64,000 nt of DNA from Parasitella parasitica (lineage: Eukaryota > Mucoromycota > Mucoromycetes > Mucorales > Mucoraceae): NCBI GenBank assembly GCA_025201805.1, contig MU619277.1:90507-154506 (forward strand), given 5' to 3'. Both the position numbers and the translations under genes were made by a program. The notes below the pieces were generated by a model that was given only the letters and a program-made list of their open reading frames with translations, was not told the origin of the DNA and made no database searches. How positions within the stretch are numbered: the first letter of the stretch is position 1; the number at the start of each line of letters is the position of its first letter. Positions 156 to 5,848 of this stretch are shown piece by piece.

Positions 156-1142
156 ATGAACAGCACAGCAATCAAAAGATGTATTCCCACTTGTGCTAGA
201 TCCATTAGGAGCTATTCCTCGAAGGCTGTGAATATATCCTTTGATAAATTCTCTTTAAAGCCCTCTCAGGAATCTCCCGTTTTGATTTGTCATGGATTAT
301 TTGGCTCCAAGCAAAATTGGTCATCACTTGCCAAAGCCATGAGCAATAGACTAACAAGAGATGTTTATACAATCGTAAATTTCCTTTATTAGATGTTTTT
401 TCTATATTTACCATACATGCATCTTTTTAAATTAGTTGCTTTAGGATCTTCGTAACCATGGTGACAGCCCGCATACAGCAGAACACACCTATAATGCTAT
501 GACTGAGGATCTCAAAACATTCATAGATAAACACAATATCAAGCAACCGATTTTGTTGGGTCATTCTATGGGAGGAAAAGCCGTGATGAATACGGCATTA
601 CAATATCCTGACCTAGTTTCCAAGTTGATTGTAGTCGACATGCCTCCATTGGCCATGAAACTCGCCCGTAGTTTCAGCAATTACGTTACTGCAATGAAAG
701 CCATTGAGACAGCTAATCCTTCCAAGCAGAGCGAAGCTGACAAGATCTTATCTCAATATGAATCCAATGTAGGGGTGCGCATGTTTTTATTGACAAACCT
801 CAAGCGCATGCCGGATGGTGCTTTACGTTTCCGCATCCCTTATGATATTTTAGGAAATTCATTGGATAACATTGGCGGCTTTCAGATTCCTGAAAATGCA
901 TTTTATAAAGGTGAAACTTTGTTTATCGCAGGAGGTGAAAGTCCTTATCTACCTCCTTTTCATGAGAAAGAAAAGCAGATCAAGCATTTGTTTCCAAATT
1001 CAAGATTAGAAGTAGTTGCTGGTGCTGGGCATTGGGGTAAGTTTTGTTTTTCGTTCGGTGATTTTCACTAAATCAAACGGATATAATAGTTCATGCGGAG
1101 AAGCCAGACGCTGTATTGAATCTGATCACATCATTTGTATGA
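156..1142 (+). CDS. ABHD11-like alpha/beta hydrolase, mitochondrial
   Basis: Three exons fit in phase: 156-374, 445-1036 and 1090-1142, giving about 287 residues. The N-terminus is Arg/Ser-rich with few acids, like a mitochondrial presequence. The body has the alpha/beta-hydrolase landmarks: an HGLFGSKQNW oxyanion-loop segment, DLRNHGDS directly after the first splice, the nucleophile elbow GHSMGG (Ser near residue 114) and the catalytic His in GHWVHAEKP near residue 269, completed only after the second splice. This order and length match the ABHD11 / yeast Imo32 family, mitochondrial serine hydrolases; human ABHD11 supports the oxoglutarate dehydrogenase complex. The substrate here is not readable. 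The ATG at 156 is the first one giving the targeting peptide. The gene stands alone, with a repeat-rich region downstream. Confidence 0.9.
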
Positions 1143-2198
1143 TATTGTTGTGTGGTGGCATGTGCCATATAGTCTCATTGCCCCATATATTAGTCAGACA
1201 GTCAAAACACTCCCCCCCCCCCACTATCCAAATATTATATAATTTATATTTTATCCAAAAAAATTAACAATGGTCTTTATCCCATTAACCATTAGTTTTG
1301 GTAACTTTGCTTATATCTCTGTTGCGTGTTATAAATATTCGTTATTGAATAATCGCTTAGTTTAAATCCTATATCAGGTAAATATCGGTTCACGCAACAA
1401 TATAGAATAAAAATAAGAAAAATTGTTTCTTAATATTCGATTAAGAGCATCTCCAACGGAGATGGTAAACGAAAAGCCATTTAAAGCACCCTTTTTTTTT
1501 AACAACCCGAAAATTTTTTGTCTGCTTTTTTGGCAGTGCTAATTTGAGACGAAAAACGTTTATTGAGTTCATATGACATTATTAAGTTTCTCCACACCTT
1601 TTTTCTTAAAAAATCTTGCATGTTTTTGCATAATACCTTAATTTCAAGATTTAAGCTTTTTGCTATCAAAAATAACCTTATTCAAACCTAGTATAAATAT
1701 CCTCAATTACTTTTTTACTTATAAATCTTTTACTGGTGTAATTGTCTCTGCTTGCTTACTGTTGCTTTGCTTTTTTGTCTCTGAAGCTCTTTGAATTACT
1801 CCCTTGGCTCTTGCATCCATTGTATTCTCTTTTACTATTTTACTCTTCTCTTTTCTTCTTTATGCAAAGTCATTCTACTTACAAAACAGGAGCTGGTGCT
1901 CACTACTTTTATTCAACCCACATTTATATATTTCATACTATAAACCTCACAATTCTAATATTAATATGAGCATTCAGGACAGAAATACTGGCCATTTTAA
2001 AAAATGTTAATAAAGTTTGTATAGATAGTTAAACTTTATACACTATACCCTTTTTTTTTTCGAGTATCCACTGTGTTGATCGTAATGCACTTTGAGATTT
2101 TGCATTGAGCCTAATTTTTCAAATTCAACATAATACATCACTGAATGTTGTAAGTTCATCCCTTCTTTTTCTTTCCTGAATTTACTCCTCACACATAT
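1143..2198. other. Gene-free AT-rich spacer with a MITE-like palindrome
   Basis: No supported gene. Short open frames here are T-rich and code for low-complexity Leu/Phe runs. It contains a C10 tract near 1211 and the hairpin CATCTCC-AAC-GGAGATG at 1448-1464, which resembles termini of small inverted-repeat elements, but no partner end was found. The region leads directly into the Fanzor relic. Confidence 0.5.
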
Positions 2199-3480
2199 AT
2201 GAAGCGTAAACATAAAGACGATCCACCAGATAGGAAAGGAAAGAGAGCTATAAGAAGTAAATATCTAACACATACATTGTGAAAAGAATATATGCCTTAC
2301 TATGTTTTAGGTGCTGATTTGAATCACCAAAAAGAGGAGGCTGATTTGACAACACCAGGCATTCCCACCACCAACGATGCTTCAAGTTCAACAGCAAAGG
2401 CTTCTAGCTCAACAGAAAAGACTGCTAGCTCATTTAATGATATAGGTTCTTCTTCCAGCAAAACTCTTACTTTGTCTAAGAAAGTCCAACAGAAAGAAGA
2501 CAAAAAAGTAGCTTTAGAGGAGTTCAAGAAACAAAACAAATCCAACAAACCAATGCTGTGTCCTTCATGTAAACAGACAGATCATGCAAGGTCTACCAGT
2601 AAACTCTGTCCACATCGAAAAGAAAAGAAGGTGGTTCAATACAATGATGACGAAAAGATAGGAGCTTTCACCATCAAGTCTTCACTTAAAACCACATGCA
2701 CAAATACAACATTCATGAAATCAATTGACAACTTGGTGGAGTACGCTACCAAAATTACCTATATAGGCTCATTGTTTGCAAACTTTATCATTCTGAAATG
2801 TGCAGGTGCCAATGAAGATACGCCAATCATTAGTCAAGATTTTGTCTATGCTATATTTTCTACCTTAGCAGGTAATGGGAGTAGGGCTCCTGAGTTCATC
2901 CGTCAATATTTTGAAGAGTTCAAAAATGCGTGCGAGATTGACGAGCAAATTTTAAAATCATTGAAGTCTATTGGTTATGCGACTATTCTTTCCATTTCTG
3001 CCAAGCAGTATGAAACCCTTATCCGAAATCATGTTTCTGAAGACAACAACGAGAAACAACAATTCTTACCCTCACCCTCCACCACTTGATGGATCAGTTA
3101 AGGCAAATAAAACCATCATTGCCTATGGAGATGGAAGATTTTCACCTACCATGAGAAGCAAAAGATCTGGACCTACAAAGACTATCATAAAAGCTCTTCA
3201 AAAATGTAAAGAAAATCGTGGTGTTACAGTCCAAATGGTAGACGAATACCTCACCAGTCAAGTCTGCAACAACTGCAAAAAAAGAAATGTTGAAAACGTT
3301 GTGCAACGATCAGCAAAGCGAAGAGTACATTCTGTATTACAGTGTCAAGAAACCGCTTGTAATATTATATGGAATTGCGATATAATGACTGCAAAAAACA
3401 TCCTCAACATATTTTTACATGCAGCAAGAAACAATGACGCTCGTCTTTCACCATTCCAGCGTTCTGAATCAAAAGAATAA
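2199..3480 (+). pseudogene. Fanzor-like (eukaryotic TnpB homologue) relic, internally deleted
   Basis: An N-terminal part starts at ATG 2199 with a basic MKRKHKDDPPDRKGKR segment. A 54-nt intron at 2257-2310 (GTAAAT donor, CTAAC branch point, TTTTAG acceptor) bypasses an in-frame stop. The exon then runs to a stop at 3089 and contains a Cys/His knot, CPSCKQTDHARSTSKLCPH, and a helical domain. A second frame, from roughly 3090 to 3480, carries the C-terminal nuclease half: AYGDGRFSPTMRSKRSGPTK, a VDEYLTSQVCNNC zinc-ribbon half, a second Cys pair, and NCDIMTAKNIL, matching the WNRDxNAAxNI RuvC-III motif with its Asp kept but Arg changed to Cys. The stretch expected to hold RuvC-I is missing and the halves are out of frame. 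Fanzors are RNA-guided endonucleases carried on eukaryotic transposons (established). This copy is inferred to be inactive. Confidence 0.75.
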
Positions 3481-3600
3481 TTGCAAGCATTGCGTGTCAT
3501 TGATATTACTCTTTGATTCGCCATGGGTATTCGGTTTTTATTACGAAGATGGACTAGATAATGTCTTCAACGAGAACGGGGATAAAGTTTAAAGGGCAAA

Positions 3601-3747
3601 ATGAAACGCAAAAACCTGATGACTGAGGAGACTTTATCTCAAAGAATTGCTGATGCTTGCAACAATGTCCGCGTAAGCGACCTTCGTGCTTTTTGTAGCC
3701 ATTCTAAGCGTCATATTAGTTTCTGTCGAGATAAAATTCATTTTTAA
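3601..3747 (+). pseudogene. Tc1/mariner-like DDE transposase C-terminal relic
   Basis: A 48-residue frame reads MKRKNLMTEETLSQRIADA, then CNNVRVSDLRAFCSHSKRH and ends CRDK. It resembles, from memory, the last 45-50 residues of Tc1/mariner-type DDE transposases annotated in Mucorales: a basic segment, a helix with ETL...RI.EA, then a helix with DLR.F..HS and a Cys-Arg end. The catalytic DDE core is absent; upstream in this frame a stop lies at 3583. It lies 120 nt beyond the Fanzor relic on the same strand. Fanzors are known as passengers of Mariner-type elements, so the two may derive from one element (inference). Identification rests on pattern memory and is moderate. Confidence 0.45.
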
Positions 3748-5848
3748 TAAATTCGCCCAATTTACCAAGAGCCAAAGTAATTATCCAAATGAACCAATAT
3801 AAAGATTATATAATCAACCAATTATTTTTTAGTATTTCACCAATTTCTTTTTCAGTTGGCCCCATCTGAACCAGTGCCCAGCGCGTAAAACCGAGAAAGA
3901 CCAGGGCTTATTCAAAGATCTCTATCTTTGTTCTGCCAGGAGTGGGAAGTTGTTGGTCTCGGGTCTTCGTTGATCTTGGATTCAGCTGCGTTGGTCATGT
4001 CACTAACTATAGTTTTGCAGTTCCTTCATAGTTGGTATGTCCTTTTAAAATCATCTTCAAATGTTACTGAAGTAATTAATTTTTATCTATACGCAATTTA
4101 TCAACAAAATTCACCAATTTACCTTTTAATTCTAACATTTCTTATTGTGCTAAAAAGCAGCTCAAACATTCTGGACCACAAAACCTGGAAATAGTCATTT
4201 TCTGTGTACTTATCTTTCTTGCTTTCTTTCATCAAAAGATGAGGATAATCCTCCATTATGTCTAGACTACACGATGAAATCAAATGTCAAAAACAAGGAA
4301 GGGGAGAGGTCATCGTATTAAGTGTTTCTTACAAGTGTTTCATCATTTCAAGAATATTAATCTCCTCTTTTGTTAGCAATTCAGTAGCAAGTAACTTGCG
4401 CAGGTATCTTTGACCTGGTTCGACTGAGGATTTACTAACCTTTTTTTAAAAAAAAAAAAGTTTACTATGAAATATCAACAGAGTGTTTTATTATACCGCA
4501 AATACTTACATTACATACGATGATCCAAGTGTTCTCGAAAAATTTTGGCATCTTTTTCGAATTTGCCAAAAACGTTTGTCGAATTTGTCAAAAATATTTG
4601 ATCAAAATTGATAATTAATGAAAAATTTATTGCTCTGAAATTCAACATACGAGCATTTGGATACATCTACAACTTGAGAGAAGTCGAATAGTGCACTTTA
4701 AAGCGCTGATAACGATGCGTGTCACCTAAAACAAAGCTGGTCTGGTGTAACAATGGTACAAATTTGTTGTTTGCTCAGATGAAGACCTTTTTTTTGCATT
4801 AAGAAAATATGCTTAGTTGCCAGCCAAGCATATTAAAGAAACTCTTTATAGCACAAAGGGCAATTTTTTTTATCATGCTTAAACATGGTAAGGCGTTTAA
4901 TCTTTCGTTCAGGCATTAAAATGGTAAACGCCAGTCAGCTTCTTCGTTCACTGCAAATTCTGGTATTATTGCTTTGATTTCACGTACAATGAGGTATAAA
5001 GATTACATGAGCTCACCTAAAGTTGGTTGCTTAGATCCCATTTTGCGTATATATTTGCTCGGTCATGTTGAAATCAATGTGCCGAAAAGATTTGCTACAG
5101 CAGTTGTCAAGGACAATAGATTGATATAAGCGATGATGTTTCCAGAATATATAGAAATTGTTGCGCTTGTCAATAATCTCATAGTACCTTTAAGCCTGAG
5201 CATCATCCCACATAAAGTACTCTTTATGAAAACGTCTTTGATCACTTTGTTGTAGACCTTGGAGTTTCCGTTACGACACTAATAGCATTAGTTACATTAG
5301 CAACCGAAAAGACCCTACAACCAAATCGGGATAATGCGTATCTAAATGTTGTCAATGCTGCAATGGACATAAAATATGTGTTCACCTTCATGTAGCCTCA
5401 GTTTTGATAATTTTTTGATGCTAAAATAGCTCGTGCTTACAATTATATGAATGAACTAGCGATAGTTTTCCAAGCCATGGATTCGCTGGTAGCAGACTGC
5501 TGCCGACACCCCCACAGGATTCAAATACCTAATCAAGTACCATTCAACATCTTTTTAGCAAACATCTGGAGCGCCCATGAATTTAGCTGTATATATTATA
5601 CACTTATTTTAAGCTTTTTTTCTTCTTGACTGATTATATCAATTTAAATTATTAAATGAATTCAGGTTTCATTTATAATGAGGGACGCCAGAAAACTTTG
5701 CTGATTCAATTCTCTTCTGTGTATAATGAATCCACGGTAACGAAAGATCCTCCATAAAATGTAGCAGGTTTATATAAATCATATGATTGCTATCTTTTTC
5801 TTTTCTTTTTTTTTCTACTCTTTATCTTTTCCCTTACATATACCAAGC
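3748..5848. other. Gene-poor repeat-derived region
   Basis: No intact gene was found. Apart from the minus-strand relic at 4329-4436, there are only broken coding-like stretches. The most protein-like is on the plus strand at about 5255-5630, interrupted by several stops and with no family recognised. Flanks are AT-rich with homopolymer runs (for example 4441-4460). Confidence 0.45.
4329..4436 (-). pseudogene. Relic exon of an unidentified Mucorales-type protein
   Basis: On the minus strand, just after an AG that could be an acceptor, a 35-codon frame reads SKSSVEPGQRYLRKLL followed by TELLTKEEINILEMMKHL and a stop. The amphipathic, Lys/Glu/Leu-rich composition is far from what this AT-rich spacer gives by chance. 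After the stop the frame continues with a few coding-like residues and another stop. No start or partner exon could be joined. It is probably a decayed copy of a lineage-expanded family; I cannot name it. Confidence 0.35.

Follow-up and report, generated by a model that had tools for sequence, protein, structure and literature searches.

Fanzor1 structures have been solved for GtFz1, SpuFz1 and the Parasitella protein PpFz1 (PMC11423790). Non-autonomous Fanzor1 families residing in DNA transposons with terminal inverted repeats (TIRs) were described by Bao and Jurka in 2013 (PMC3627910), e.g., the MuDr-type families ROr-4, PBl-3, and MCi-4 in Rhizopus, Phycomyces, and Mucor as well as TTAN-flanked viral families, and for the Helitron-type CRe families the same paper depicts internal deletion forms. 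PIF/Harbinger transposons are characterized by a TWA duplication at the target and by a short TIR that usually starts with A or G (PMC4482050). For the Fanzor1 reRNAs of a S. frugiperda ascovirus, an extension of about 15 nt past the target-site duplication (TSD) was reported, with TIR and TSD as predicted parts of the scaffold (PMC10711439).

Here, we analysed a stretch of 64,000 nt from the genome of the mould Parasitella parasitica (contig MU619277.1, positions 90,507–154,506; hereafter "the window"), in which a Fanzor gene sits in a TIR transposon at about 1445–3537 (window coordinates on the forward strand, as for all features below). We read this locus, with a probability of roughly 85%, as a dead copy of a DNA transposon (non-autonomous, cut-and-paste) that carried a Fanzor1 gene between PIF/Harbinger-like ends, was internally deleted, and lost its right end. 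With the families of PMC3627910 it shares a transposase-free Fanzor gene, TIRs, and (here presumed) target-site duplications, but the duplications given for those families are of 9 bp or of the TTAN type, whereas TWA flanks and a palindromic TIR (GAGCATCTCCAAC) were found here. Family MCi-5 of the same paper is described with a Harbinger transposase, but without TIRs and with 6-bp duplications. The resemblance to PIF/Harbinger elements and their MITEs (PMC4482050) comprises the TWA flanks, a short TIR with G as its first letter, the occurrence of deletion derivatives, and about 640-bp elements consisting of TIR parts without a Fanzor gene (TIR-only elements, L051 and L052), but no transposase was found in the element described here. 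A literature search with the TIR string GAGCATCTCCAA gave no related paper as judged by titles, and no published Fanzor family with TWA-flanked TIRs was found among the titles and abstract openings of the papers listed. The ends are of a kind that we have not seen described for Fanzor elements; the element family is mildly unusual, and the window copy is an ordinary, dead one. A first-pass annotation, made from the letters alone, had proposed a Fanzor relic with an intron and a missing RuvC-I region; what goes beyond it are the ends of the transposon, the deletion classes common to several copies, and the loss of the right end.

The Fanzor1-type gene remnant and its missing middle

Window positions 2199–3480 hold a Fanzor1-type relic from which RuvC-I was removed by deletion, with both ends of the gene present. 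The two readable halves of the first-pass annotation were recovered where it had placed them: ORF 2283–3089 and ORF 2965–3480 each encode one half of the same gene, and the frame differs between them. In a Pfam search, the C-terminal ORF matched PF07282 (OrfB_Zn_ribbon/Cas12f1-like_TNB), the profile named there as a check, with 32.9 bits at a cut-off of 26.3 (E 7.2e-8; residues 79–146 of ORF 2965–3480, window 3199–3402), and a PDB sequence search with the same ORF revealed Guillardia theta Fanzor1 (E 6.5e-4). NCBIfam models for TnpB and Cas12f matched it weakly, far under their cut-offs. The N-terminal ORF resulted in nothing meaningful in Pfam (New_glue alone, E 0.02, under the cut-off), and a protein search showed it to be homologous to Fanzor-family proteins of Mucorales. 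Gene identity and deletion are both firm.

The gene begins with exon 1 at 2199–2256 (MKRKHKDDPPDRKGKRAIR), the start of which is conserved in a relative from Pilobolus umbonatus (P0015) that begins MKRKHKDDPPDRTGKKAIRS and contains WAVDPGISTVF. A 54-nt GT...AG stretch follows (2257–2310), which by its letters is probably an intron, as had been suggested: the same in-frame TGA lies inside it in seven of the nine copies covering the region. Splicing nevertheless falls short of proof, since 54 is divisible by three, the stop is lacking in the other two copies (L020 and L049), and the gene model of P0015 reads through. The N-terminal half of the gene, supported by the ORF and its homologues, extends from 2311 to 3041 and includes the Cys/His knot C-x2-C-x4-H-x7-C (2559–2609), which is retained in P0009, P0014, and P0015 and has one Cys changed in P0017, a P. 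parasitica protein (BD408DRAFT_101635). This motif, kept in three Mucorales-type Fanzor-family proteins, has no Pfam match in the window ORF.

The C-terminal half, identified by its ORF, PF07282, and alignment, covers 3103–3480 up to the stop codon. Besides the zinc ribbon, it retains the RuvC-III Asp in WNCD (codon 3379–3381), which was located by alignment with five relatives, four of which read NRD there. The Glu of VDEYLTS (codon 3244–3246; VDEYLTSQVCNNC) stands six residues ahead of CNNC, the spacing before CxxC being a pattern described for the Fanzor Glu (PMC10711439), and it aligned with a Glu of GtFz1 in a profile match; by these features, it fits the rearranged catalytic Glu (alternative RuvC-II Glu) for which it had been a candidate. 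The zinc-ribbon spacing is longer here than in the TnpB pattern given in PMC10711439.

When the window copy was aligned with five relatives, the DEY Glu appeared in all six rows and DPG in all three that extend to RuvC-I (P0002, P0003, and P0018). A profile of the relatives searched against the PDB matched GtFz1 (E 1.5e-9), over a span from DPG of RuvC-I to the Glu and the zinc ribbon, and SpuFz1 (E 7.8e-9) in the RuvC-I part; a second alignment used as profile again led to GtFz1 and SpuFz1. At E ≤ 0.01, these two were the only hits of the PDB profile search, with no TnpB chain among them. No PpFz1 chain occurred among the PDB matches of the family, which bears on the family only if the searched PDB set includes PpFz1. 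PDB sequence searches with the N-terminal part of L031 and with two pieces of L028 resulted in no match, those with P0015 in chance matches to fatty acid synthase only, and those with the zinc-ribbon stretch of L009 in weak matches with a designed protein and LaTranC on top; L012, which belongs to a different Fanzor family, matched SpuFz1 (E 9.8e-6). AlphaFold applied to the Mucor saturninus relative P0003 with an eight-row alignment gave a mean pLDDT of 37 and no usable model. Compared with Fanzor1 as described in PMC10432273 and PMC10711439, the family is alike in its sequence match to GtFz1 and SpuFz1, in DPG at RuvC-I, and in TDG, and the window copy in its Glu spacing and RuvC-III Asp, but the window copy differs in being frameshifted and in having neither TDG nor RuvC-I.

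A DNA search of the P. parasitica genome with window 2150–3600 revealed at least 44 matches, which were grouped into 33 loci including the window, and 22 of these were examined. Matches on C158 and C25 (76% identical) represent a sister family. PF07282 has 36 matches in the genome, so that the relatives foreseen by the first-pass annotation do exist; the intact copies that it also expected were not found in this family, no full-length open gene being seen at the 22 of 33 loci examined, five of which (L013, L015, L016, L019, and L050) have runs of N within the element or next to it. The other PF07282 loci form at least five further DNA groups beside the window's family. The group L030–L033 is probably young, based on 96.6–99.3% identity between sites, and a comparison of its right edges revealed no common edge.

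Among the examined copies, only L020 (3655 bp, N-free) extends from one end to the other with no large gap inside; it has WAVDSGISTVF at RuvC-I and several breaks in its reading frame. Alignment of the window to this reference defined the deletion and showed that the change of frame and the absence of the segment with the first catalytic Asp, both noticed before, are real: the window skips reference 1701 to about 3118 (about 1.4 kb) in one step at a TGTGAA microhomology (TCTGAA in the window, 3036–3041), a junction that it shares with L025, L046, and L015. Within the skipped segment lie the TDG motif, in a stretch starting at 2552, and RuvC-I, in one starting at 2668; the window copy has thereby lost TDG of the WED domain, a mark of Fanzor1 rather than Fanzor2, and the RuvC-I Asp of DPG. 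Sister copies covering these regions read TDG in 7/7 cases and, at RuvC-I, DPG in 7/10, with one each of DSG, DPE, and DPR.

Relatives in other moulds

The protein search resulted in 18 distinct proteins, and all named ones belong to Mucorales, namely Parasitella, Thamnidium, Mucor saturninus, Rhizopus microsporus, Cokeromyces, Radiomyces, and Pilobolus. Protein P0016 from Cokeromyces recurvatus (264 aa) revealed 91% identity over 23% of the 396-residue joined query (about 91 residues). Its tail corresponds to the 3' end of the element read in another frame, starting just after the Fanzor stop codon, and 20–23 letters of this 25-residue tail were matched in 16 of 21 P. parasitica copies, with 15–18 in the other five including the truncated window copy. 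As a host baseline, an ABHD11-like gene (window 448–1068), for which a P. parasitica protein was 100% identical over 95% of the query, showed 57% to Cokeromyces and 65% to Pilobolus. In a 39-residue comparison, nine copies from P. parasitica, those fitting the search pattern, had 29–33 matches with Cokeromyces and 23–27 with Pilobolus, and Cokeromyces and Pilobolus share 23 with each other.

Based on the 91% for the Fanzor protein versus 57% for the host gene, the 39-residue counts, and the conserved tail, these sequence comparisons point to a recent horizontal transfer between Parasitella and Cokeromyces, a lead with one host gene and one protein behind the comparison. Functional constraint together with vertical descent could produce the same likeness, and we give this explanation somewhat less than an even chance. 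In its favour, the Cokeromyces evidence consists of a single protein and the baseline of a single gene, and the shared tail falls in the candidate guide-RNA region discussed below; against it speak the gap between the two identities, the fact that the 39-residue stretch is closer to Cokeromyces than to Pilobolus, and the retention of an out-of-frame tail beyond the stop codon in 16 of 21 copies. In a laboratory model, P. parasitica passes nuclei and mitochondria to Absidia glauca (PMC4807231), and Fanzor- and transposon-mediated transfer in Parasitella has been a matter of speculation (PMC11423790).

Transposon ends and target site

The Fanzor-carrying TIR element begins at about 1445 and ends, with its right end missing, at 3537, the positions where homology to sister copies starts and stops. 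Its left TIR is the near-palindrome GAGCATCTCCAACGGAGATGG (1445–1465), the reverse complement of which closes other copies on the right. This 21-mer occurs at 42 genome sites with up to one mismatch, versus 0 for a reversed control, and the TIR pattern preceded by TWA at 60 sites versus 1. The window copy is flanked on the left by TAA (1442–1444; C41:91948–91963 corresponds to window 1442–1457), presumably one half of the target-site duplication. TWA, i.e., TTA or TAA, stands outside 9/10 left and 12/14 right ends compared. Both ends are present in 11 of the 22 copies, the window having the left one only; the surplus of right over left ends is confounded, as most loci were picked via PF07282, which lies near the right end. 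Flanking triplets were equal in 10/15 elements (4/4 TIR-only and 6/11 Fanzor elements), the pairs being picked by hand and elements with an unpaired mutated end (e.g., L015 and L025) staying outside the count. With one mutated element (TTG) set aside, the one-sided p of this agreement against a TTA/TAA coin toss was 0.09. The preference for TWA as target is clear; that TWA is also duplicated falls short of proof.

The TIR-only elements of about 640 bp were identified at L051:158–797 and L052:121–760 and also on C116, C75, and C89, the one on C89 being enlarged by an insert; they share about 119 bp on the left and about 40 bp on the right with the Fanzor element and have a different interior. 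At L017:4417–4439, the right terminal palindrome is flipped, its loop side being CCAACAG rather than CCGTTGG, which is what an in-situ inversion of the TIR hairpin would produce.

A transposase with these ends was not found when the genome was searched for PF13359 (DDE_Tnp_4) and PF13358. In the longest copy, L020, the element contains no ORF of at least 170 aa besides the Fanzor pieces, and no PF13359 match lies at a TIR site, the genome holding three DDE_Tnp_4 matches with the nearest TIR site 6.8 kb away (C50). DDE_3 (Tc1/mariner), by comparison, has 163 matches. A 2.25-kb TIR-flanked element (L053, C89:127150–129600) was considered as an autonomous partner and rejected, as it turned out to be one of the TIR-only elements, within which a Tc1/mariner transposon (DDE_3, 93 bits) is nested.

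Since no DDE_Tnp_4-type transposase was found in the element or at the TIR sites, we describe the ends as PIF/Harbinger-like without filing the element as a member; the superfamily is probably PIF/Harbinger-like. The element might instead belong to another TIR superfamily, e.g., Tc1/mariner or an unclassified one, with TWA reflecting an AT-rich target preference only. The unequal triplets in 5/11 Fanzor elements would suit this, as would the abundance of DDE_3 and the rarity of DDE_Tnp_4. We consider it unlikely, though worth keeping in mind, because TWA recurs at most ends on both sides, short TIRs with an initial G agree with the description of PIF/Harbinger in PMC4482050, and the right flanks are at odds with a TA duplication.

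Deletion derivatives, the lost right end, and a candidate guide RNA

The junction of the window copy is not unique to it. Four deletion classes with identical junctions were identified, namely class A (window, L025, L046, and L015), class B (L013, L023, and L048), class C (L024 and L039), and class D (L011, L040, and L042), the last of which has lost the N-terminal part; a fifth junction, in L049, is single. The N runs of L013 and L015 lie elsewhere, and their junctions were read directly. Left flanks were available for 10 of the 12 copies of classes A–D and are all different, so that identical junctions occur at different sites and the deleted copies must have moved. A 274-bp deletion in the 5' part (reference 121–395) is found in L011, L013, L023, L025, L039, L046, L048, and L050, and thus in copies of classes A–D, while L020 and the window retain the segment (window 1534–1737). 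As L025 and the window both belong to class A and only the former has this deletion, either copies recombined or the 5' deletion arose repeatedly.

In the C-terminal coding part of 17 copies, minor alleles at codon positions 1/2/3 numbered 42/34/37, an even spread with no sign of coding constraint, as in drift. That the shortened gene is a useful RNA- or DNA-binding Fanzor remnant without nuclease activity, selected as a repressor or competitor of active Fanzors, is very improbable in view of these counts and of the two frames of the window copy, even though both the zinc ribbon and the N-terminal motif are retained in classes A, B, and C, and each of classes A–D is found at 2–4 sites. Distances per region were 0.053 for the 5' UTR, 0.057 for the N-terminal and 0.036 for the C-terminal coding part, and 0.035 and 0.056 for the 3' UTR; the copy sets differ between regions and four copies cover all of them, so that this hint of a quieter 3' side carries no conclusion.

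On the right, the window copy stops at 3537, with 3481–3537 as the remainder of the 3' UTR, while sister copies extend about 115 bp further, as far as the right TIR; this TIR, the right flank, and what else belongs to the candidate guide-RNA region are lost. No right TIR was detected anywhere in the 64-kb window with up to three substitutions allowed. Just past the break, 3590–3716 revealed 11 DNA matches elsewhere with 72–80% identity (part of one match reaching 3754), and since 10 of these 11 places adjoin a DDE_3 match, e.g., C10:178765–178891 beside 178851–179105, we read this segment as the C-terminal fragment of a Tc1/mariner transposase relic.

Complete right ends have the layout reported for Fanzor1 reRNAs, and by this analogy a guide RNA of the family would plausibly end in the palindromic TIR hairpin plus TWA. 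RNAalifold of 16 right ends predicted three helices, one with an inner extension, in addition to the TIR hairpin. No supporting covariation was detected in the predicted stems, with a double change in 1/34 pairs across the 16 copies, so that the recurring stems rest on conservation, and single-sequence folds of the right end vary between copies. Rfam gave no match for window 1400–4500 up to E 0.1. A guide RNA at a conserved 3' end, as expected earlier, is compatible with this layout but has no support from covariation.

The deletion derivatives might even serve as mobile guide-RNA donors. With the 3' UTR, the palindromic TIR hairpin, and TWA of its right end as guide-RNA scaffold, each insertion would guide a Fanzor made elsewhere to its own empty site, elements with a dead Fanzor would be spread and kept by a nuclease acting in trans, TWA would be both insertion target and part of the scaffold or target motif, and passage between moulds would occur at the fusion of Parasitella with its host. 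The whole 3' UTR and the right TIR are kept in at least one copy of each multi-copy deletion class A–D; right ends are damaged or lost in the window, L042, L046, and L048. The TIR-only elements have spread as well without a 3' UTR, a point against guide donation, which we regard as improbable.

Under our preferred reading of a dead, non-autonomous Fanzor1 transposon, a parent element of about 3.65 kb (cf. L020) with near-palindromic TIRs of about 21 bp would have inserted at TWA as PIF/Harbinger elements do, moved by a transposase acting in trans that may have been of the PIF/Harbinger type, and its Fanzor may have been an RNA-guided nuclease with the guide at the right end. The catalytic middle was removed by internal deletions between direct repeats only a few bases long, presumably by faulty gap repair after excision, and several of the derivatives, class A among them, then transposed further. 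The window copy has also lost its right end, beside the Tc1/mariner relic, and should as a consequence be unable to transpose or to supply a complete guide RNA.

The window copy as such is inert. P. parasitica is the source of PpFz1, a Fanzor with a solved structure (PMC11423790), and a family with clear ends, shared deletion classes, and a close relative in another genus offers a workable test bed in this organism, in which it can be addressed what service a Fanzor renders to its transposon and whether such an element crosses between fungi via mycoparasitic fusion.
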